43,795 bases of DNA, from positions 1 to 43,795 of the forward strand of contig NZ_JARKOT010000067.1 of NCBI RefSeq assembly GCF_029977985.1, given 5' to 3'. Numbering within the stretch: position 1 is the stretch's first letter; every line of letters begins with the position of its first letter. A program made the translations under genes and the position numbers. Below, in pieces: positions 1 through 7,719 of this stretch. The notes under the pieces were generated by a model. It was not told where the DNA came from, ran no database searches, and saw only the letters and a program-made list of their open reading frames with translations. Origin of the DNA: Propioniciclava sp. (GTDB lineage Bacteria > Actinomycetota > Actinomycetes > Propionibacteriales > Propionibacteriaceae).

Positions 1-681
1 GGGGCGACGCTCTCTCAAGTCGACGTCGTCATGTGTGGCGGCGACGCCCTTTGCAGGGTCGGGAGATCGGACGAGGCGGGTGAGGTGGGCGCGGTCGGCT
101 GCGTGGAGGGTGCTGAGGAGGTTGGACACGTAGTTGGCGACGGTCTTGGCGCTGAGGGAGAGGTGGGCGGCGATGTCGGCGTTGGTGAGGCCGTCGGCGA
201 TGAGTCCGAGGATTTGCCGTTCGCGTGTGGTGAGGGCGGGGAAGTCGGCCTCGGCGGGGGTGAATGCGGTGAGGGGGTCGGCGCCTTGGAGGCGGGGTGC
301 GATGCTGGCCCCGATGACCAGGGTGCCGGCGGCGACGGCCCGGATCGCGGTGACGACTTCGTCCGCGGCGGCGTCTTTGGCGAGGTAGCCGTGTGCCCCT
401 GCCGCGAGCGCGCGGGAGACCGACGCGGTGTCGGCGGCCATGCTGATCACGATCACCCGGGTGCGGGGTGTGTGCTGTGTGGCGGCGCTGATGATCTGGT
501 GGCCGTGCCCGTCGGGCAGGCCCAGGTCGACGATCAGGATGTCGGGTTGAGCGGCGAGAACCGCAGTGGCCTCGGCGAGGGAAGCTCCTTCCGCGACGAC
601 GTCCATCCCGGCGGCGGTCAGGAGGTGTCGGAGGCCGTCGCGGAACAGGGGGTGGTCTTCGACCAGCCCGACGCTAAGCAC
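1..681 (-). CDS. NarL/FixJ-family response regulator (3' end outside window)
   Basis: DNA-binding response regulator, read leftwards and still open at base 1, so the C-terminus is missing (227 codons visible). The receiver domain covers about residues 1-118, with the acidic pair E8/D9, phospho-acceptor D52 (in IVDLGLPDG) and K102 (in GYLAKDA). A LuxR-type helix-turn-helix follows at about 150-205 (LTTRERQILGLIADGLTN...SAKTVANYV). The GTG start at 681 overlaps the stop of the histidine kinase by 8 bp, which indicates translational coupling and makes that kinase the likely phosphodonor. The visible part already contains both domains, so only a short tail should be lost. Target genes cannot be told from this sequence; the neighbouring membrane-protein operon is a reasonable guess. 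Confidence 0.9.
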   Translation of the reverse strand, partial: MLSVGLVEDHPLFRDGLRHLLTAAGMDVVAEGASLAEATAVLAAQPDILIVDLGLPDGHGHQIISAATQHTPRTRVIVISMAADTASVSRALAAGAHGYLAKDAAADEVVTAIRAVAAGTLVIGASIAPRLQGADPLTAFTPAEADFPALTTRERQILGLIADGLTNADIAAHLSLSAKTVANYVSNLLSTLHAADRAHLTRLVRSPDPAKGVAATHDDVDLRERRP

Positions 682-2434
682 CGGACCCGCCCGTGGTGGG
701 GAGGGTGACCCTCAGGATCGAGCCGATCGGCCCGGGTCCGAAGTGGCTGCGCCCGCCGAGTTCAGTGGCTCGTTGGGCGATGGACGCCAGCCCGATACCG
801 TCGCGTCCACGGTGGCGGGGACCCACTCCGTCGTCGGCGACCGTGATCACCAACTCGTCCTCGCCGAGCTGGAGGTCGACGGTGCAGGTCCCCGCGAGGG
901 CGTGGCGACGCACGTTGGTGACGGCTTCTTGGACGATCCGCAGGGTGGCGACTTGAACGGCCTCGTCGAGCGGCGTGTGGCCGAGGGTGGAGTGGAGGGC
1001 GACACGCAGCCCCGGCCCGTGCGTCGATAGTCGTTCGGCGAGGAGGCCTTCCAGGCCGAGCCGGTCCAGTTCGGGAGGGCGTAGGTCGTAGGCGAGTTGG
1101 CGGACGCGGCCGGCGGTGGCGTGCGCCTCGGACTCGATGCGCCCCAACAGGGAGCGCGCGCCGATCGGGTCGGCGTCCACGGCGCTGGCGGCTGCGGCCG
1201 CAATGTGTCCCAGACCGGCCAGTGTCGGGCCGAGGTCGTCGTGGAGGTCGGCGTGGAGGCGGCGGCGTTCGTCCTCCCGGGCGGCCGACAACTGCTCGGC
1301 GGCTTCTGTGGCCCGCTGCGCCGAGCGCGCCCCGTACAACGCGGGAGCGACCGTCTGGGCGATCGAGCGGAGGATGGTCCGGTCACGCGGCGATAGGCGT
1401 GACTCACCGGGACGCGGCTCGACCGCGAGGACGGCCACCTGCTCGCCTTGGAAGGAGACGAGTTCTTCCTCGGTGCACGCTGCGGGGTTCCCGATGGAGG
1501 CGACCGGTCGGCCATCCACGCCGATGATCACCGACGTGACGTTCAGGGCGTCTCGAGTTGTCGTGACCACGACCTGGGACACGCCCTCCGGTGTGGCCGC
1601 GTGTGCCAGGGCGGCGGCCAGGCGGCCGAGCGGACGCTCCGGGCCGCGCGCGTAGGCGAGCCGGCTCCCCGCCGCGTGGGACATCCAGGCGGCCGGCAAC
1701 ACCGCAAGACAGGCGGCCGTGGTGGCCCAGCCCGGCTCGGCGCCCACGCTCAACACACCGACGTACGCCACGGCCACGAGGAGCGTCGCGCCGGTGATGG
1801 TGACGACGGCGACCACGAGGCGGTCGACCGGGCCACGCTCGCCGAGCACCAACCCGGCTGTCGCTGCCAGCGGGACGGCCCACATGCCGGCCGTCGCCGC
1901 CGCCAAGTACCAGGGGTGAGTCAGCACCCCCTCCCCGGTCGCAGGGAGGAACGAGATCAGCCCGACACCGAGAAACACCCCGACTGCCGGAATGAGGCCG
2001 AGCAGCAGCCACTTCGTTGCCTGCCGTTCCCGCACCGACGACCGTCGCTGGTACCGCCAGACCTGACCGGCCGCCCCCGCGCCGAACGCCACGATGAAAC
2101 ACGCCGCGGACCACTGCGCCCACGCCGGCCACACCAGCGGCACCACCATGAGGCAGCAGGCGACCACCACGATCCCGGCCAGCCACGGCGGCTCGGCGCG
2201 ACCGGTCGGATAGACCATCAAGAACCCGAGCCAGGCCACCATCGAGAGCGCCACCAGTACGGGCTGCTCCTCCGGAACGGGTGCCACCCACTGGGCCGCC
2301 AGCACGCCGAGTACCGCGACCAGCGGGACCTCGGCCCACGGTGGACGGGGGAGCCGAGCCCCAGCCCGTAACGCCAGGGCCGTGGACGCCAGCGCGGCGA
2401 CCACGGCTCCTGCCAGACCCAACCCGGGGTTCAT
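674..2434 (-). CDS. Sensor histidine kinase, HisKA_3 (NarL/DesK) type
   Basis: Membrane histidine kinase of 586 residues. The first ~260 residues are hydrophobic with several predicted membrane segments and no recognisable periplasmic sensor domain, so the input is probably sensed in or near the membrane. A GAF-like linker (about 265-375) leads to the HisKA_3 dimerisation box, with phospho-acceptor His398 in RRRLHADLHDDLGPTLAG. The HATPase domain follows, with N-box QEAVTNVRRHA (about 502-512), DDGVG (about 537) and a second glycine motif DGIGLASI. It would autophosphorylate and pass phosphate to the overlapping response regulator. The ATG at 2434 lies 9 bp after the small membrane-protein gene, so the three genes probably form one operon. 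The signal is unknown. Confidence 0.9.
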   Translation of the reverse strand: MNPGLGLAGAVVAALASTALALRAGARLPRPPWAEVPLVAVLGVLAAQWVAPVPEEQPVLVALSMVAWLGFLMVYPTGRAEPPWLAGIVVVACCLMVVPLVWPAWAQWSAACFIVAFGAGAAGQVWRYQRRSSVRERQATKWLLLGLIPAVGVFLGVGLISFLPATGEGVLTHPWYLAAATAGMWAVPLAATAGLVLGERGPVDRLVVAVVTITGATLLVAVAYVGVLSVGAEPGWATTAACLAVLPAAWMSHAAGSRLAYARGPERPLGRLAAALAHAATPEGVSQVVVTTTRDALNVTSVIIGVDGRPVASIGNPAACTEEELVSFQGEQVAVLAVEPRPGESRLSPRDRTILRSIAQTVAPALYGARSAQRATEAAEQLSAAREDERRRLHADLHDDLGPTLAGLGHIAAAAASAVDADPIGARSLLGRIESEAHATAGRVRQLAYDLRPPELDRLGLEGLLAERLSTHGPGLRVALHSTLGHTPLDEAVQVATLRIVQEAVTNVRRHALAGTCTVDLQLGEDELVITVADDGVGPRHRGRDGIGLASIAQRATELGGRSHFGPGPIGSILRVTLPTTGGSGA

Positions 2435-2443
2435 GGGCCGACG

Positions 2444-2863
2444 CTACCGGCGCAATGCCATCCCGACCAGACCAGCCACGAGCGTCCCTACGACGATCAG
2501 GCCGATCACGAAGGGCCACATCCCCGACGGTGCTCCCGGCAGGAACGGCAACATCAGCGCACTCCACGCTTCCACCAGCCGCGTCACGACCACGGTCCAC
2601 AAGGAGGGCCGGTGCCCCCGCCAGGCTGGGACCAACGCGACCAACGTCGCCAGACCCAGCACCAGCAGGGTCACGCTGATCCAGACGGGCTGGGGTGCCA
2701 CCGTCGGGTCCAGCTGCCCGGCCCGCGGATCCACCAGCGACATCGCGCCGTTCGACAGGTTCGCCGCCCCCATCACCCCCGCCAGGACCAGCCCGATCTG
2801 AGACGCCAGCCGTGAGCGTCCTGCCAGCCGCGACGTCCCCAACTCCGTGCCCGTGGCCGCCAT
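2444..2863 (-). CDS. Small integral membrane protein beside a two-component system
   Basis: A 139-residue protein with about four hydrophobic stretches (roughly residues 24-45, 60-80, 88-110 and 115-137), so an integral membrane protein. I do not recognise a family. The reading frame is open further upstream (to 2941), but the ATG at 2863 is preceded by GGGAGG about 6 nt away and begins just before a basic segment, so I place the start there. It is the first gene of an apparent operon with the histidine kinase (9-bp gap) and response regulator. Such proteins are often accessory sensors or regulated targets of the adjacent kinase, but nothing in this sequence decides between those roles. Confidence 0.7.
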   Translation of the reverse strand: MAATGTELGTSRLAGRSRLASQIGLVLAGVMGAANLSNGAMSLVDPRAGQLDPTVAPQPVWISVTLLVLGLATLVALVPAWRGHRPSLWTVVVTRLVEAWSALMLPFLPGAPSGMWPFVIGLIVVGTLVAGLVGMALRR

Positions 2864-3107
2864 GACCGACCTCCCTGTTCCTGTTGACCCCAGCCTCCGG
2901 CAGCCCCTGAGCTGCGCGGTAGAGACCAGAGTTCCCAACAACTGGGAGATCCTCGGGAAGGCAAGCGCGCTGCGGACGTGCTCGCGCTGCCGGACGGTTG
3001 GCCCCCAGCGATCTCTTGGACTCCCTGTGACCTCATCGTTGCGCGGCTTCGATGCTCGTGTTGGGGCAGCGCCGGCGCGAGGGAGCGCTCCGAAAGTCGC
3101 ATGCGGG
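2864..3107. other. Divergent intergenic region, two-component operon / abiE
   Basis: Roughly 300 bp separate the minus-strand membrane-protein operon from the plus-strand abiE operon. I see no ORF with coding character. It should hold the promoter of the two-component operon. The only clear symmetry is TCCCA-acaac-TGGGA at 2933-2947, about 70 bp upstream of the ATG at 2863, a possible regulator site. I could not assign a convincing -35/-10 pair on the minus strand. Confidence 0.4.
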
Positions 3108-3137
3108 TTACGCTTGGGGCTACCTAGAAGGTAGTGT
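3108..3137 (+). promoter_or_regulatory. abiE promoter with overlapping inverted-repeat operator
   Basis: TTACGC (3108-3113) and TAGTGT (3132-3137) are spaced by 18 bp and fit an actinobacterial sigma-A-type promoter. Between and over them lies a perfect inverted repeat, CTACCT-aga-AGGTAG (3120-3134). The abiEi start codon is 23 bp downstream. AbiEi antitoxins are known to repress their own operon by binding inverted repeats in the promoter, so this is the expected position of an autoregulatory operator. The promoter hexamers are my reading; the repeat is directly visible. Confidence 0.6.
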
Positions 3138-3159
3138 TCTGCTTAACGGGGGTGCGGTG

Positions 3160-3807
3160 ATGGGTCGTGGTGGATTGCCGGTGGAGGTCACGGCTGCGCC
3201 GTTGCGGACGGTTCGTCCGCTGATGCTTCGCGGCGTGTACGCCAACCCGGAGAAGGAACTGGTCCGGTTCATGAGGGCGGGGCTGGTGACCCGAATCGCC
3301 CCGGGCACGTATACGGCGAAGCCGGACACGGTCCCACCCGATCGGCCGTGGCGTCCCGGGGTGGAAGAGGCTGCCATGGCCTATGCGACCGTCCAGTACG
3401 GGCCTCGGGTCCCGGTGCTGTACGGAATCGGCGCTGCCCGGTTCCACCACGCGATTCCGCGGGCGATCGGGGTCGTGGTGGTCGCGGTGCCGCAACAGCA
3501 TCGTCCGGTGGTGCTGGCGGGTGGGGGGCGGGTGCTGTTCACCACGACCGATGTGTCCCGGCTGGAGGCCCGCTTCGAGCAGAGCAGCCTGGGCGGCTTC
3601 CTGGTGACGACACCGGAGCAGACCGTGGTGGACCTGCTCGACCGGCCCCGGCTGGGCGGCTTGCCGGCCGAGGCTACCGCGGCGGCGGGGGTGCTGGCGG
3701 ACCTGGTGGACCGGGAGCGGGTCCGGGCGTTGGCCGCGCGAGGGTCGCGTACCGTGCAGGCGAAGGTCGAAAACCTGTTCTGTGACGAGGATGGGCGGGA
3801 GGGTTGA
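3160..3807 (+). CDS. abiEi: AbiEi-family antitoxin / autorepressor
   Basis: Antitoxin of a type IV toxin-antitoxin system of the AbiE family (215 residues). The N-terminal ~70 residues look like the winged-helix DNA-binding domain of AbiEi (LMLRGVYANPEKELVRFMRAGLVTRIAPGTY), followed by the C-terminal antitoxin domain (TPEQTVVDLLDRP near residue 155). In the family the antitoxin does not bind the toxin; it counteracts its activity and represses the operon. The frame stays open upstream to 3052, but I choose the ATG at 3160 because it follows a GGGGG ribosome-binding stretch, lies downstream of the promoter/operator, and the upstream residues do not resemble the family. Its stop overlaps the abiEii start by one base (TGATG). 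Confidence 0.85.
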   Translation: MGRGGLPVEVTAAPLRTVRPLMLRGVYANPEKELVRFMRAGLVTRIAPGTYTAKPDTVPPDRPWRPGVEEAAMAYATVQYGPRVPVLYGIGAARFHHAIPRAIGVVVVAVPQQHRPVVLAGGGRVLFTTTDVSRLEARFEQSSLGGFLVTTPEQTVVDLLDRPRLGGLPAEATAAAGVLADLVDRERVRALAARGSRTVQAKVENLFCDEDGREG

Positions 3808-4679
3808 TGGTGACCAACCGTGAGGAGGCTCGGGGCGGTGCCCGACGTCGGGCACGGGTGGCTCGACCGGGTAACCGGCTGCCGGATGCGGTGTTCGAAT
3901 TGTCCGAGGCGGACGCGGCCGTCCGGGAGGATCACTTCGGGGTGGCGCGCGCTCAGATCGAGCATGACTTCGTCCTCTCTCACGTGCTGGCCGTGTTGGC
4001 TCCGCACGCCGACCGGTTCGTGTTCCACGGTGGAACGGCGTTGAGCAGGACCATCCTTGAGGGGTTGCGGTTGAGTGAGGACATCGATCTGCTTTCGGTG
4101 GGCCCGCGTGCCGAGGTGGCGCCGGTGCTGGATGAGGCGATCCGGGCCGGGTTGCAGCGTGGCCTCGGAACCGTGAACGCGACGCCGTGGTTGTCGGAGG
4201 CCCGCACCGACACGGCTGGGTGCCTGTTCCGGATCGGCGGGGTGTACGTGAGGATCCAGTTGCTCGACGGCCGGCTCTACCCCGCGTGGCCAACGCAGGC
4301 GTCGACGGTCTCGCAACGCTATGCGGGGCTTCCAGATGTGGCGTTGACCACGTACAGCGCGGAGGGATTCGCAGGAGCGAAGACGACGGCCTGGTGTGAC
4401 ACGACCCGGAACGCACCCCGGGACTTGTACGACTTGTGGGCGATGGCGCAGGCCGGGTACCTCACGGCCGACGCGGCCCGGGTGTACCGGCGCTACGGGC
4501 CGACCGGAGGGCTCCCACGCAGGGCAGTCTTCCCAGCGCGGGCGCCGAGTCTGGACGAATGGGTCCTGGCCCTGGGGCATCAGTGCATCCCGAAAGTCGG
4601 TCCGGACGAGGCGTTCGAGACAGTCGTGCGATCCTGGGAAGCGGCTGCGACGGCCGCCGAGGCGGACGACGCCCGCTGA
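3807..4679 (+). CDS. abiEii: AbiEii/AbiGii-family nucleotidyltransferase toxin
   Basis: Toxin of the AbiE pair (290 residues from the ATG at 3807, preceded by GGGAGGG). It carries the nucleotidyltransferase signature of PF08843: FHGGTALSR at about 73-81 followed by RLSEDIDLL, with metal-binding D92 and D94, and the later K...RDLYDLW block (KTTAWCDTTRNAPRDLYDLW). Family members transfer nucleotides, in characterised cases to tRNA acceptor ends, and so stop growth, giving abortive infection of phage or element maintenance. All key residues are intact, so the module is probably active. The position beside an apparent tRNA attachment site suggests it travels on a mobile island. No partner beyond AbiEi is visible. 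Confidence 0.9.
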   Translation: MVTNREEARGGARRRARVARPGNRLPDAVFELSEADAAVREDHFGVARAQIEHDFVLSHVLAVLAPHADRFVFHGGTALSRTILEGLRLSEDIDLLSVGPRAEVAPVLDEAIRAGLQRGLGTVNATPWLSEARTDTAGCLFRIGGVYVRIQLLDGRLYPAWPTQASTVSQRYAGLPDVALTTYSAEGFAGAKTTAWCDTTRNAPRDLYDLWAMAQAGYLTADAARVYRRYGPTGGLPRRAVFPARAPSLDEWVLALGHQCIPKVGPDEAFETVVRSWEAAATAAEADDAR

Positions 4680-4709
4680 CCGAGCCGCGGCCTGGACGCC
4701 CGGCCTCGG
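4680..4709 (+). terminator. Possible terminator hairpin after abiEii
   Basis: Immediately after the stop, CCGAG-CCG ... CGG-C-CTCGG forms a GC-rich hairpin with one bulged C. There is no U-tract, as is common for actinobacterial hairpins, so the call is tentative. Confidence 0.35.
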
Positions 4710-5332
4710 CGGTGGTTCCCTCCTGAGGCTCACTTCCCGTCTCGGAGGGTCGGGTGGGAAGGCAGGCTTGCGAGCGGGCGCTGATCCCGTTCCCTGCGGG
4801 TACACCTTGGCGTGTCGGCTGGTGGAACAGGGTTTAAGTACCTGGCCTGCGCAGCTCCATGGCCGCCCGTCGGCGACGGTGTCCACCAAGCGGCTTGAAC
4901 CGCCCCCGTTACGTGGGGGAGGACGTCGGTTTGGGTGTCCGGCTGATGAGTGAGGAGGGGCATGACCAGAATCGGCACCAGCCGGTCACCGAGTCGGGGT
5001 TTCATCCGATCGCGGGCGACGGCGTCCCCGAGATGCGGGCAGGACGCTCGAGGACGTGGCTCGCGACGACGTTCCAGACCGGAGAGCCGTCTCGGATGCC
5101 CGTGTGCCAGGATCGATGCGATTCCGCTGCGCCTGACTTCCGCTGCGTTGGAGCCGAGGCCGCACTGCAGGGCGTCTCGCCGGCCGGAGTGGCTCGCGGC
5201 CGCGGCTCCGGCGTCCAGGGGCGACAGGTTGGCGGCCATTTGGCTAGTCCCAGCTAAGCCCCAACAGCCCGATTTCCAGTCCGCCAGCCCTGCATCCGGC
5301 CTTGTGGATCGGGGGTTACGCTGACAGCTTGC
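4710..5332. other. Island-side non-coding stretch, no intact gene
   Basis: About 620 bp without a convincing gene. Open frames on both strands have no ribosome-binding site, no recognisable domain and odd composition (rich in Arg/Pro/Ser). A weak hairpin, CCCCC-gttacgt-GGGGG, lies at 4903-4919. I looked for integrase or excisionase remnants near the tRNA fragment and did not recognise any. Confidence 0.5.
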
Positions 5333-5361
5333 CGCAGGTTCGAGTCCTGTCGCCCCGACCA
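5333..5361 (+). repeat. tRNA-Pro 3'-end fragment, probable attachment site (att)
   Basis: The 29 bp contain a complete T-arm (GCAGG, loop TTCGAGT, CCTGT), a 3' acceptor strand CGCCCCG, discriminator A and CCA, but nothing upstream resembles the rest of a tRNA. The acceptor strand implies a 5' partner CGGGGCG, which is characteristic of actinobacterial tRNA-Pro. Integrative elements using the 3' end of a tRNA leave such a partial copy at the far end. In this orientation the intact tRNA should lie at lower coordinates, outside the window. Confidence 0.7.
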
Positions 5362-5362
5362 T

Positions 5363-5388
5363 CGTTTCCACTTGTCAGGTCGGAAACG
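5363..5388 (+). terminator. Hairpin just after the tRNA fragment
   Basis: Perfect 7-bp inverted repeat CGTTTCC / GGAAACG with a 12-nt loop, starting two bases after the CCA of the tRNA-Pro fragment. It may be the old tRNA terminator or part of the recombination core region. There is no T-run after it. Confidence 0.35.
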
Positions 5389-6029
5389 AGAGGGGCCGGA
5401 GGCGTGGGTCACGTGCCCCGTGCCCCGTGCCCCGTGCCCGTGGTGCTTGCTTCATCGCTGCCGGAGGCATGACGCTGCGGTCGTCCAGCCGCAGGCTGGC
5501 CGCGACTGGAATTCAGCGTCGGCGCCGATGTGTTGCCGCAGGCTGCCGCCGCCGAGCGTGCCTGCAGACTCCGAGGCCCGGATGACCGGGGTCTTCGGTG
5601 ATGTGGAGTTCGGCACCGTTGACAGCGTTCTTGCAGGCGATGCTGCGACGCCCAGGCGCGACCACGCGTCTCACCATTCCAGTGTCGCGGGGCTGCTGGG
5701 CTCGCCTCCACCACCTCGGCTGGGGCGTGACGGCAGCCGAGCGCCCCGGCTGGCAGGGGCCCGGTGATCCGCTGCAGCGCGACCTGCAGCCGTTGTCGCG
5801 CGACTTCCTTGCCGCCGGCCCCCGGTAGCACGGTCGGACGCCCGAGGCGTCAGCCTGGGACGGTCACCACCGTTGGTCGATTCCAGGGGAATCATCGTGG
5901 ACGCCGGCGGTACGTCGTCGGGGCATCCACGTCAGGCTGCTGTTGGGGACGCCGCAAGTTGGGGAGCGGTGGGTGGTCGAGGTGAGCCGCCGCGATCGGC
6001 GTGATGCGGGACGGGCTGGGAGAATCCGC
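5389..6029. other. Non-coding stretch between att fragment and tRNA-Gly, with short tandem repeat
   Basis: About 640 bp with no gene I can support. It contains a tandem repeat of the 7-mer GTGCCCC: three exact copies plus GTGCCCG at 5413-5440. Minus-strand frames give short Arg/Gly/Pro-rich translations without start signals. It could be decayed coding sequence, but I cannot name a source. Confidence 0.5.
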
Positions 6030-6035
6030 TAGGCT
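6030..6035 (+). promoter_or_regulatory. -10 box of tRNA-Gly
   Basis: TAGGCT lies 21 bp upstream of the mature tRNA 5' end. The same hexamer recurs before ndk, the mrp operon and the Eis-like gene in this window. No clear -35 is seen. Confidence 0.45.
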
Positions 6036-6056
6036 GGATCGGCGCGCGAGCGCACT

Positions 6057-6127
6057 GCGGATGTAGCTCAATGGTAGAGCCCCAGTCTTCCAAACTGGCA
6101 ACGCGGGTTCGATTCCCGTCATCCGCT
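6057..6127 (+). tRNA. tRNA-Gly (anticodon TCC)
   Basis: Complete 71-nt cloverleaf. Acceptor GCGGATG pairs with CATCCGC, the D-stem is GCTC/GAGC, the anticodon stem is CCAGT/ACTGG around loop CTTCCAA (anticodon TCC, reading GGA), the T-stem is GCGGG/CCCGT around TTCGATT, and the discriminator is T. The bases that follow are CCG, so the final A of CCA is not encoded and must be added. Confidence 0.95.
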
Positions 6128-6168
6128 CCGGGTTCGCCCGACCGTAACCGACACCAGGAGTCCAACCA

Positions 6169-7719
6169 GTGCCCAGCACCTTCGAGAAGCTCGGCCCGTC
6201 CCGGGTCAAGCTCACCATCGAGATCCCCTTCGCAGACCTCAAGCCCCACCTCGACAAGGCGTATCGGGAGATCGCCGCTCAGGTCCAGATCCCGGGCTTC
6301 CGCAAGGGCAAGGTGCCTCCGGCAGTCATCGACAGTCGGTTCGGGCGGGGCGCCGTCCTCAATGACGCCATCAACGACGCCCTTCCCGAGGCATACGGCA
6401 AGGCCGTCGCCGACAACGAGTTGACCCCGCTTGGCCAGCCCGACATCGAGATGACCAAGCTCGAGGACAACGACCTCGTCGAGTTCACCGCCGAGGTCGA
6501 CGTGCGCCCCGACTTCGAGGTGCCCGACTACGCCGACCTGAACGCGGAGGTCGCGCCGGTCGCCACGTCCGACGAGGACGTCGAGGAACGCATCGAGGTG
6601 ATGCGTCAGCGCTTCGCGACCCGCAGCGATGTGGAGCGGGCGGCGTCCGAGGGCGATGTCGTGACGCTCGACCTCGAGGCGCGGGTCGACGGTGAGGTCG
6701 TCGAGGGCGGCACCGCCGAGGGCGTCACCTACAAGGTGGGCTCGGGCGGCATGCTCGAGGGTCTCGACGAGGCGGTCACCGGGGCGTCCGCGGGAGACAC
6801 GAAGAAGTTCACCTCCGAGCTCGTCGGCGGTCCCGCCGAGGGCCAGCAGGCTGAGGTGACCGTGACGGTCATCAAGGTGCAGGCGGAAGAGCTGCCCGAG
6901 GTCGACGACGAGTTCGCCCAGATGGTCAGTGAGTTCGACACCGTCGAGGAGATGCGCGCCGACCTTGCGGACGCCGCCCTGCGCGTCGCCCGCGTGGAAC
7001 AGCTCAACGCCGCCCGCGACGCCGTCATCACTGATCTCGCGAACAAGACCGACTTCGAGCTGCCCGAGGGCCTCGTGACCACCGAGATCGAGAACCGCAA
7101 GCAGCAGATCACCGAGCAGCTCGCCCGCGCCGGCTACACGCTCGAGCGCTACCTGGAGGAGTCCGAGGACGAGACCGCCGAGACGGCGGAGGAGTTCTGG
7201 GCGCAGGTCGAGGACAACGCCCGCACCTCCCTGAAGGCGCAGGTCATCCTCGACAAGATCGCCGAGACCTCCGAGGTCAGCATCGAGCAGAACGACCTCA
7301 CCGAGATGCTGTTCCGTCGGGCCCAGGCCAGCGGCACCTCCCCCGAGCAGGAGATGCAGCACATGATGGAGCACAACCACACCTCCGAGTGGATGGCCGA
7401 GATCCGTCGCAACAAGGTGCTGAGCGAGATCGTCAAGGGCGCCCACGTCACCGACACGAACGGCGAGGTCGTCAACGTCGCCGCGATCAACGCCGACGGC
7501 ACCCTCGATGAGTCCGTCGAGCCGCCCGCGCCGAAGGAGGCGCCCGCCAAGAAGCCGGCTGCCAAGAAGGCTGCGGCCGAGAAGGTGGACGCCTCGGCGG
7601 AGCCGGCCGACGACGAGGCCGAAGCGGCGGCGTCCCAAGAGGAACCGCAGAAGGCGGCCGCGAAGAAGCCGACGACCAAGAAGGCCCCAGCGAAGAAGGT
7701 CGACGCCGAGTCCGAGTGA
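6169..7719 (+). CDS. tig: Trigger factor, ribosome-associated chaperone / prolyl isomerase
   Basis: Trigger factor (516 residues), which binds the ribosome near the exit tunnel and shields nascent chains. The N-terminal ribosome-binding domain holds the signature PGFRKGKVPPAVI near residues 43-55 (GFRxGxxP motif). A FKBP-like isomerase domain spans about 150-245, and the C-terminal helical chaperone arms run to about 440. The last ~75 residues are an Ala/Lys/Glu-rich tail with repeated AKKPAAKKA-type units, typical of high-GC actinobacterial homologues and likely disordered. The GTG start at 6169 follows CAGGAG 8 nt upstream. The gene lies 41 bp after tRNA-Gly and ends in a strong hairpin. 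The usual neighbour clpP1 is downstream but separated by an inserted minus-strand gene pair. Confidence 0.97.
   Translation: MPSTFEKLGPSRVKLTIEIPFADLKPHLDKAYREIAAQVQIPGFRKGKVPPAVIDSRFGRGAVLNDAINDALPEAYGKAVADNELTPLGQPDIEMTKLEDNDLVEFTAEVDVRPDFEVPDYADLNAEVAPVATSDEDVEERIEVMRQRFATRSDVERAASEGDVVTLDLEARVDGEVVEGGTAEGVTYKVGSGGMLEGLDEAVTGASAGDTKKFTSELVGGPAEGQQAEVTVTVIKVQAEELPEVDDEFAQMVSEFDTVEEMRADLADAALRVARVEQLNAARDAVITDLANKTDFELPEGLVTTEIENRKQQITEQLARAGYTLERYLEESEDETAETAEEFWAQVEDNARTSLKAQVILDKIAETSEVSIEQNDLTEMLFRRAQASGTSPEQEMQHMMEHNHTSEWMAEIRRNKVLSEIVKGAHVTDTNGEVVNVAAINADGTLDESVEPPAPKEAPAKKPAAKKAAAEKVDASAEPADDEAEAAASQEEPQKAAAKKPTTKKAPAKKVDAESE

Follow-up and report, generated by a model that had tools for sequence, protein, structure and literature searches.

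The window analysed here, 43,795 nucleotides long, is a complete contig (C58) of a 3.10 Mb Propioniciclava genome in 296 contigs, whose trigger factor is nearest, among named genomes, to that of Propioniciclava soli (85% identity). Reading from its first base, we find a two-component pair, an AbiE pair, a fragment of a tRNA-Pro(UGG) gene, and then tRNA-Gly(UCC) and the trigger factor gene (tig):

1–681, − strand: LuxR-type response regulator (Response_reg, GerE), its frame reaching the contig edge without a stop
674–2434, − strand: sensor histidine kinase (HisKA_3, HATPase_c)
2444–2941, − strand: 165-aa protein without a Pfam or PHROGs match
3052–3807, + strand: AbiEi antitoxin (PADLOC 1.3e-71; Pfam AbiEi_1 at 20.3 bits, with a cut-off of 22.2)
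3804–4679, + strand: AbiEii nucleotidyltransferase toxin (Pfam AbiEii 1e-23; PADLOC 2.5e-82)
5218–5228, + strand: GGGGCGACAGG, an exact inverted copy of the CCTGTCGCCCC of the core, 115 bp before the fragment
5251–5264, + strand: CAGCTAAGCCCCAA, presumed integrase arm-type site
5333–5361, + strand: core of the putative attR, comprising T-arm, 3′ acceptor strand and CCA of tRNA-Pro(UGG) and exactly matching the intact genes of relatives
5363–5388, + strand: hairpin CGTTTCC...GGAAACG (fold of 5359–5400, −14.5 kcal/mol)
6057–6129, + strand: tRNA-Gly(UCC), the first conserved chromosomal gene outside the proposed island (ARAGORN, Rfam)
6169–7719, + strand: trigger factor (tig), the conserved chromosomal flank (Pfam; synteny in relatives)

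The AbiEi and AbiEii genes stand side by side in one direction, with frames that overlap by 4 bases. The hairpin directly 3′ of the fragment is possibly the original tRNA-Pro terminator, and between the fragment and tRNA-Gly there are four perfect copies of CGTGCCC (5412–5439). CTTGTCA, also 3′ of the fragment, was considered as a native tRNA-Pro trailer and rejected as too weak, being present in the flanks of only four of the sequences compared, the window included. Base composition shows no step at 5333.

A preliminary description of this DNA had read 5333–5361 as the isolated copy of a tRNA-Pro 3′ end that marks the right boundary of a genomic island. The stretch, CGCAGGTTCGAGTCCTGTCGCCCCGACCA on the + strand, does reproduce the tRNA-Pro(UGG) 3′ end exactly over 29 nt; it is the single match in the window even when up to 3 mismatches are allowed, and none of 100 dinucleotide shuffles matched. 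It is identical to the tRNA-Pro(UGG) 3′ end in eight of the ten same-genus genomes in which that gene was located, the exceptions being G005 (28 of 29 bases) and G002 (3 mismatches), and the block identical to relatives starts at 5332 or 5333 and ends between 5359 and 5362. The T-arm and acceptor end also stand, as had been claimed, without the remainder of a tRNA: ARAGORN and Rfam (at gathering scores), run on the window, found no tRNA at the fragment, the sole tRNA there being tRNA-Gly(UCC) at 6057, and a lax Rfam search of 4700–6200 still left the fragment without a tRNA match. The 47 nt on its 5′ side, compared with the 5′ part of the tRNA, scored 7.0, that is, no residual similarity (2000 random places in the window gave a mean of 6.8, and 51% of them scored at least as high). 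Because these 47 nt resemble random window DNA and no tRNA is called, the fragment is a cut-off end and not a whole gene in decay.

On the other side of the fragment, all 12 same-genus genomes gave matches to tRNA-Gly(UCC) and to the beginning of tig, which rules out an element lying to the right of the scar with tig inside the island. tRNA-Pro(UGG) was located in ten of the 12, beside tRNA-Gly (in G003 on a separate contig), and the compared stretches of G006 and G010 are without it. Its direction relative to its neighbours varies within the genus: it points away from tRNA-Gly in five genomes (G001, G007, G009, G011 and G012) and lies upstream of tRNA-Gly in the predicted direction in G002, G004, G005 and G008, and also, judging by flanking genes, in G003. 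Across the family, tRNA-Pro, tRNA-Gly and tig also differ in their order. The preliminary description had pointed to relatives lacking the island as the place to look for an empty site, and one is seen in G002 (presumed P. tarda), where tRNA-Pro and tRNA-Gly run in the same direction 0.8 kb apart; from the fragment to tRNA-Gly in the window the distance is 0.7 kb. In G004, G005 and G008 the two tRNA genes are separated by 6.5–10.7 kb with no fragment at up to 5 mismatches, so that the interval also grows in other ways. Pfam scans of interval proteins (six from G004, four from G005, five from G008 and one from G009) returned metabolic, regulatory and repair functions, and an integrase in G009.

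The same joint was searched for in 197 genomes of the Propionibacteriaceae by means of a pattern consisting of GCCCCAA, a gap of 60 to 88 bases and the tRNA end, with the reversed pattern as control. This arm-gap-core pattern occurs in 13 genomes, including the one studied here, and the control in none. Although 29 gap lengths were permitted, the pattern measures 101–102 bases in 12 of the 13 (112 in G083); G057 and G119 agree across the pattern stretch, so not all 13 are independent. Nine of them have an intact tRNA-Pro(UGG) on the side that the orientation predicts and on the same strand; these are exactly the nine whose contig reaches one. In the remaining four (G009, G119, G190 and our own genome) the contig ends 4.7–7.7 kb upstream, before any tRNA-Pro, and no counter-example was met among the 13. 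From joint to tRNA-Pro, the nine complete relatives span 2.3–17.1 kb: 2334 bases in G157, 3407 in G058, 10865 in G192, 11399 in G083, 11698 in G145, 14157 in G128, 14331 in G003, 16186 in G133 and 17089 in G057. The right boundary and the orientation first proposed for the window agree with these nine of 13 same-type joints; the further expectation of an intact tRNA-Pro at lower coordinates holds for the same nine, whereas in our own genome the contig ends 5.3 kb upstream of the fragment. Since the same type of joint is found in a dozen related genomes, that of the window is a further member of a well-known class. In G003 there is an apparent tandem array at one tRNA-Pro, extending over two contigs (L063:2421–16826 with L062:165–196), beginning with the intact gene, a 14.3 kb unit and a first fragment, and going on with another unit, in which there is an AbiEi gene, a second fragment and tRNA-Gly; some 200 bases that include the core and the DNA following it are 89% identical between the intact gene and the first fragment.

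The DNA immediately before the fragment has an anatomy of its own. GGGGCGACAGG is offset from the fragment by 115 in the window and by 114 at the G003 fragment, and across 13 aligned right ends it is exact in six, has one mismatch in four and is degenerate in three. CAGCTAAGCCCCAA occurs once in the window, without a mismatch, even when up to 2 are allowed, and it is also present at the left ends of the elements in G011 and G009, adjoining their integrases. Shuffled sequences gave, at 2 mismatches, a mean of 0.92 matches to the 14-mer around GGGGCGACAGG and 0.24 to CAGCTAAGCCCCAA, so that each motif taken alone is weak evidence; both are exact in the window. Alignment of the arm region to the right end of G003 scores 74 (493 random places in the window: mean 38.8, sd 6.9, maximum 60.5), and 5218–5361 is 73% identical to G009:C14:17771–17914; to the second (outer) fragment end of G003, on C53, the arm region bears no resemblance (36.5 versus a mean of 35.5). 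Repeats within 1–6200 are short matches in two or three copies, and the resemblance of 2753–2768 to 5222–5237 (88%), which overlaps the arm, was taken as chance. That the element has its right end at 5218–5361, where a copy of the core lies inverted and an arm-type site keeps a constant spacing to the core, is well supported.

We hypothesize, with high confidence, that 5333–5361 is the attR of an island integrated site-specifically in tRNA-Pro(UGG). A fragment of this kind might instead be what remains of a decayed or partly duplicated tRNA-Pro after ordinary deletion or rearrangement, in which no integrase took part; this would suit the shifting place and orientation that tRNA-Pro(UGG) has, within genus and family, relative to tRNA-Gly and tig, and the finding that no integrase is among the window proteins scanned (Pfam, PHROGs), nor any PF00589 match on the contig among the four listed of five in the genome. 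Such a remainder would hardly be expected, however, to start sharply at the T-arm with no residual 5′ part and with every base intact, or to be preceded by an arm site whose distance is fixed in 12 of 13 genomes, and we consider this origin extremely improbable.

Relatives of the site-specific island, as we interpret it, show which enzyme may have acted. A tyrosine integrase in G011 (presumed P. flava; L061:6651–7826; PHROGs integrase, 3e-57) lies directly after tRNA-Pro, as does that of G009, which is 89% identical to it; copies or parts of the integrase, 91–93% identical, follow tRNA-Pro in G058, G133, G145 and G157, and a copy (whole or part) of a P. flava-type integrase stands just after tRNA-Pro in G192. 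All matches of the G011 integrase in phage and plasmid collections are below 60% identity, with the top-ranked phage record at 39%. In G128 there is only a 74-residue integrase piece, and its 10 PF00589 matches sit elsewhere. The joint span contains no PF00589 match in G003 (all 14 are elsewhere) or in G083 (both 2 are elsewhere), and none in G057 among 8 of 9 matches listed; the G057 element holds a transposase of the IS4/5 type. Such members are called integrase-less in the sense of having no tyrosine integrase by PF00589, the search having covered tyrosine recombinases. In G119 a match to PF00589 that is of a different kind, and that a search with the G011 integrase did not find, sits at the contig edge, roughly 5 kb to the upstream side of the right end. 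The left-arm sequence GACTAGGCATTAT is present after tRNA-Pro in the integrase-bearing G011, G058 and G145 and also in G003 and G057, and in changed form in G009 and G133; the motif does not occur after tRNA-Pro in G083, G128, G157 or G192.

In the assembly of our own genome, the proline tRNAs called by Rfam and ARAGORN are Pro(CGG) and Pro(GGG), both located at contig edges, and tRNA-Pro(UGG) is not among them (ARAGORN covered 30 of 37 Rfam matches, through 27 loci, one of them from the pattern search below, with another 4 lying within these or in the window; the 7 left out are 79–86 nt long). The T-arm/acceptor pattern at 2 mismatches occurs at four places in the assembly, none of them a Pro(UGG) gene, and the left-arm motif at none with up to 2 mismatches. 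Nor is there a close integrase in the assembly: the best, on C82, has 42% identity and stops and adjoins the 3′ half of another tRNA, and was for these reasons ruled out as the missing enzyme. C82 itself (L089, at about 2955–3000 and 3192–4287) bears that tRNA 3′ half, which we take to be Lys-like, and then a stop-interrupted tyrosine integrase, which is what is left of another tRNA-borne element. The last base of contig C261, 26388, falls within an Rv2466c-like gene, and in G004 (presumed P. soli) this gene belongs to the block upstream of tRNA-Pro and has the same direction; a DNA search of the assembly with that block (40 of 397 candidates scored) found neither its glycosylase gene nor the gene after it, except for a paralogue on C82 that is 42% identical in protein. 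The simplest order is C261, a presumed gap with tRNA-Pro(UGG) and the left end of the island, and then C58. The window starts inside the island, so that the intact tRNA-Pro, the left joint and any integrase are out of view; they probably fall in the assembly gap next to C261. Their absence from the assembly, together with that of the left arm, would follow from a left end within the gap, but is no confirmation of it. A later rearrangement could also have parted a true attR from the left joint and the intact tRNA-Pro, in which case the two-component pair need not be cargo, and both the missing left joint and the rearrangement of the region between relatives would fit; the end of C261, though, faces the presumed gap with the gene order of G004, and both joints are kept in order in the nine complete relatives, and we judge a separation of this sort improbable.

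For an island whose joints have stayed in order, as we prefer to read it, the cargo can be stated. As 1–5332 contains neither a second fragment nor a tRNA-Pro, the island should extend past the contig start, with the AbiE pair and the two-component pair both inside it. The best relatives of the histidine kinase and response regulator among the loci compared are about 40% identical and belong to other families of the order; a pair 64–72% identical to AbiE occurs in G005, at another place. A DNA search with 1–5330 (14 candidates scored per genome) gave some match in 20 of 21 genomes, and the sole long match within the genus was AbiE in G005. Cargo was scanned in six elements of relatives, for part of their proteins (G058, G119, G157, G190 and G192 were left out): it includes, in G145, nSTAND3 and a pair of SMODS nucleotidyltransferases accompanied by a 4TM effector; in G133, YobI/Tmn; in G057, TOTE primase-helicase, HepT, phosphoketolase and a radical SAM protein; in G128, SIR2-like, DNA methylase and RES proteins; in G083, an RHS protein; and in G003, genes for a P-type ATPase, for PEP carboxylase and for carbamoyl-phosphate synthase, the unit that follows holding an AbiEi gene. 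Defence genes are common but not universal among the elements scanned. The TOTE and HepT genes of G057 (L194:13169–16529) and genes of the same size in G009 (L199:8000–11360) each stand beside a right end; perhaps these two genomes, of different genera, share one cargo, judged for G009 by gene sizes alone.

The scar could belong, alternatively, to a full prophage in tRNA-Pro(UGG), such as PJS23 of Propionibacterium freudenreichii, which adjoins tRNA-Pro(tgg) (PMC5644110). Three of five viral contigs with the core hold just a 3′ part of the tRNA, in line with its use by phages; yet two of these three copies start in the anticodon arm, and the GGGGCGACAGG arm is found in none of the five. Six window proteins yielded no phage structural family in PHROGs, where two of them match families of unknown function, of a sigma factor or of an HTH protein. 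The complete relatives, at 2.3–17.1 kb, are moreover short for a prophage, and a prophage origin thus appears highly improbable.

In the history that we propose for the island, a tyrosine integrase of the type adjoining tRNA-Pro in relatives would have catalysed recombination between attP and the tRNA gene at its 3′ end. With a copy of that end brought in by the element, the tRNA would have remained complete at the left joint and its own former 3′ end would have been displaced to the right one, before tRNA-Gly(UCC) and tig, with the two-component pair and the AbiE type IV toxin-antitoxin pair as cargo of an island continuing past the contig start. In the usual integrase mechanism the 29 bp at the right edge are the original chromosomal tRNA end and the intact gene upstream carries the copy of the element, which places the start of the chromosome at 5362. 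For this particular element the integrase, the left joint and any present mobility are presumed. With the island edge fixed at the joint, the AbiE and two-component pairs can be treated as acquired cargo and the DNA from 5362 as chromosome, and the arm-plus-core pattern provides a cheap finder of such islands, including members that a survey requiring an integrase would miss. More speculatively, small cargo islands rich in phage defence genes may dock at the tRNA-Pro(UGG) of Propionibacteriaceae with one att architecture, some being integrase-less and relying on a sister element's integrase to move them in trans, and the AbiE island of the window may be one of them; we offer this broader picture as a tentative and rather doubtful one. 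If integrase-less members do move in trans, they would show how defence genes can spread without a recombinase of their own.

Islands in tRNA genes have been mapped in about 460,000 genomes by TIGER/Islander, which requires an integrase gene inside the island (PMC12424338); the islands so mapped likewise use tRNA genes as sites and peak in size near 10 kb, similar to the spans found here, and by that requirement G003, G057 and G083, with no PF00589 match, should be unlisted. CIMEs are cis-mobilizable elements described as having lost integration and transfer genes while keeping attL and attR, with tandem accretion known (PMC5704250). Like them, those of our elements in which no tyrosine integrase is seen have both joints preserved, and one site (G003) holds a tandem array; unlike them, the members described here are known from sequence alone, and the window element has one joint in view. 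PJS23 shares the bacterial family and the tRNA, but is described as a full phage (PMC5644110). The integrative conjugative elements of actinomycetes have in common with our island the tRNA 3′ end, an actinobacterial host and a tyrosine integrase, the last being presumed for our island, but are identified, as PMC3218068 presents them, by Int, Tra and Rep together, none of which was seen among the proteins scanned from the 5.3 kb in view; the accessible part of PMC9033027 treats pSAM2 without naming its tRNA. The AbiE type IV toxin-antitoxin system is reported as a two-gene operon of an AbiEi antitoxin and a nucleotidyltransferase toxin (PMC3985639), and the pair in the window is encoded likewise. 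In systems of this class the toxin arrests growth, and the antitoxin relieves the arrest without binding the toxin. The literature searched, as far as its accessible text goes, contains no account of this tRNA-Pro(UGG) att family. Compared with these systems, the mechanism is textbook, and what is new is the att family itself, its members without a tyrosine integrase, and its frequent defence cargo.
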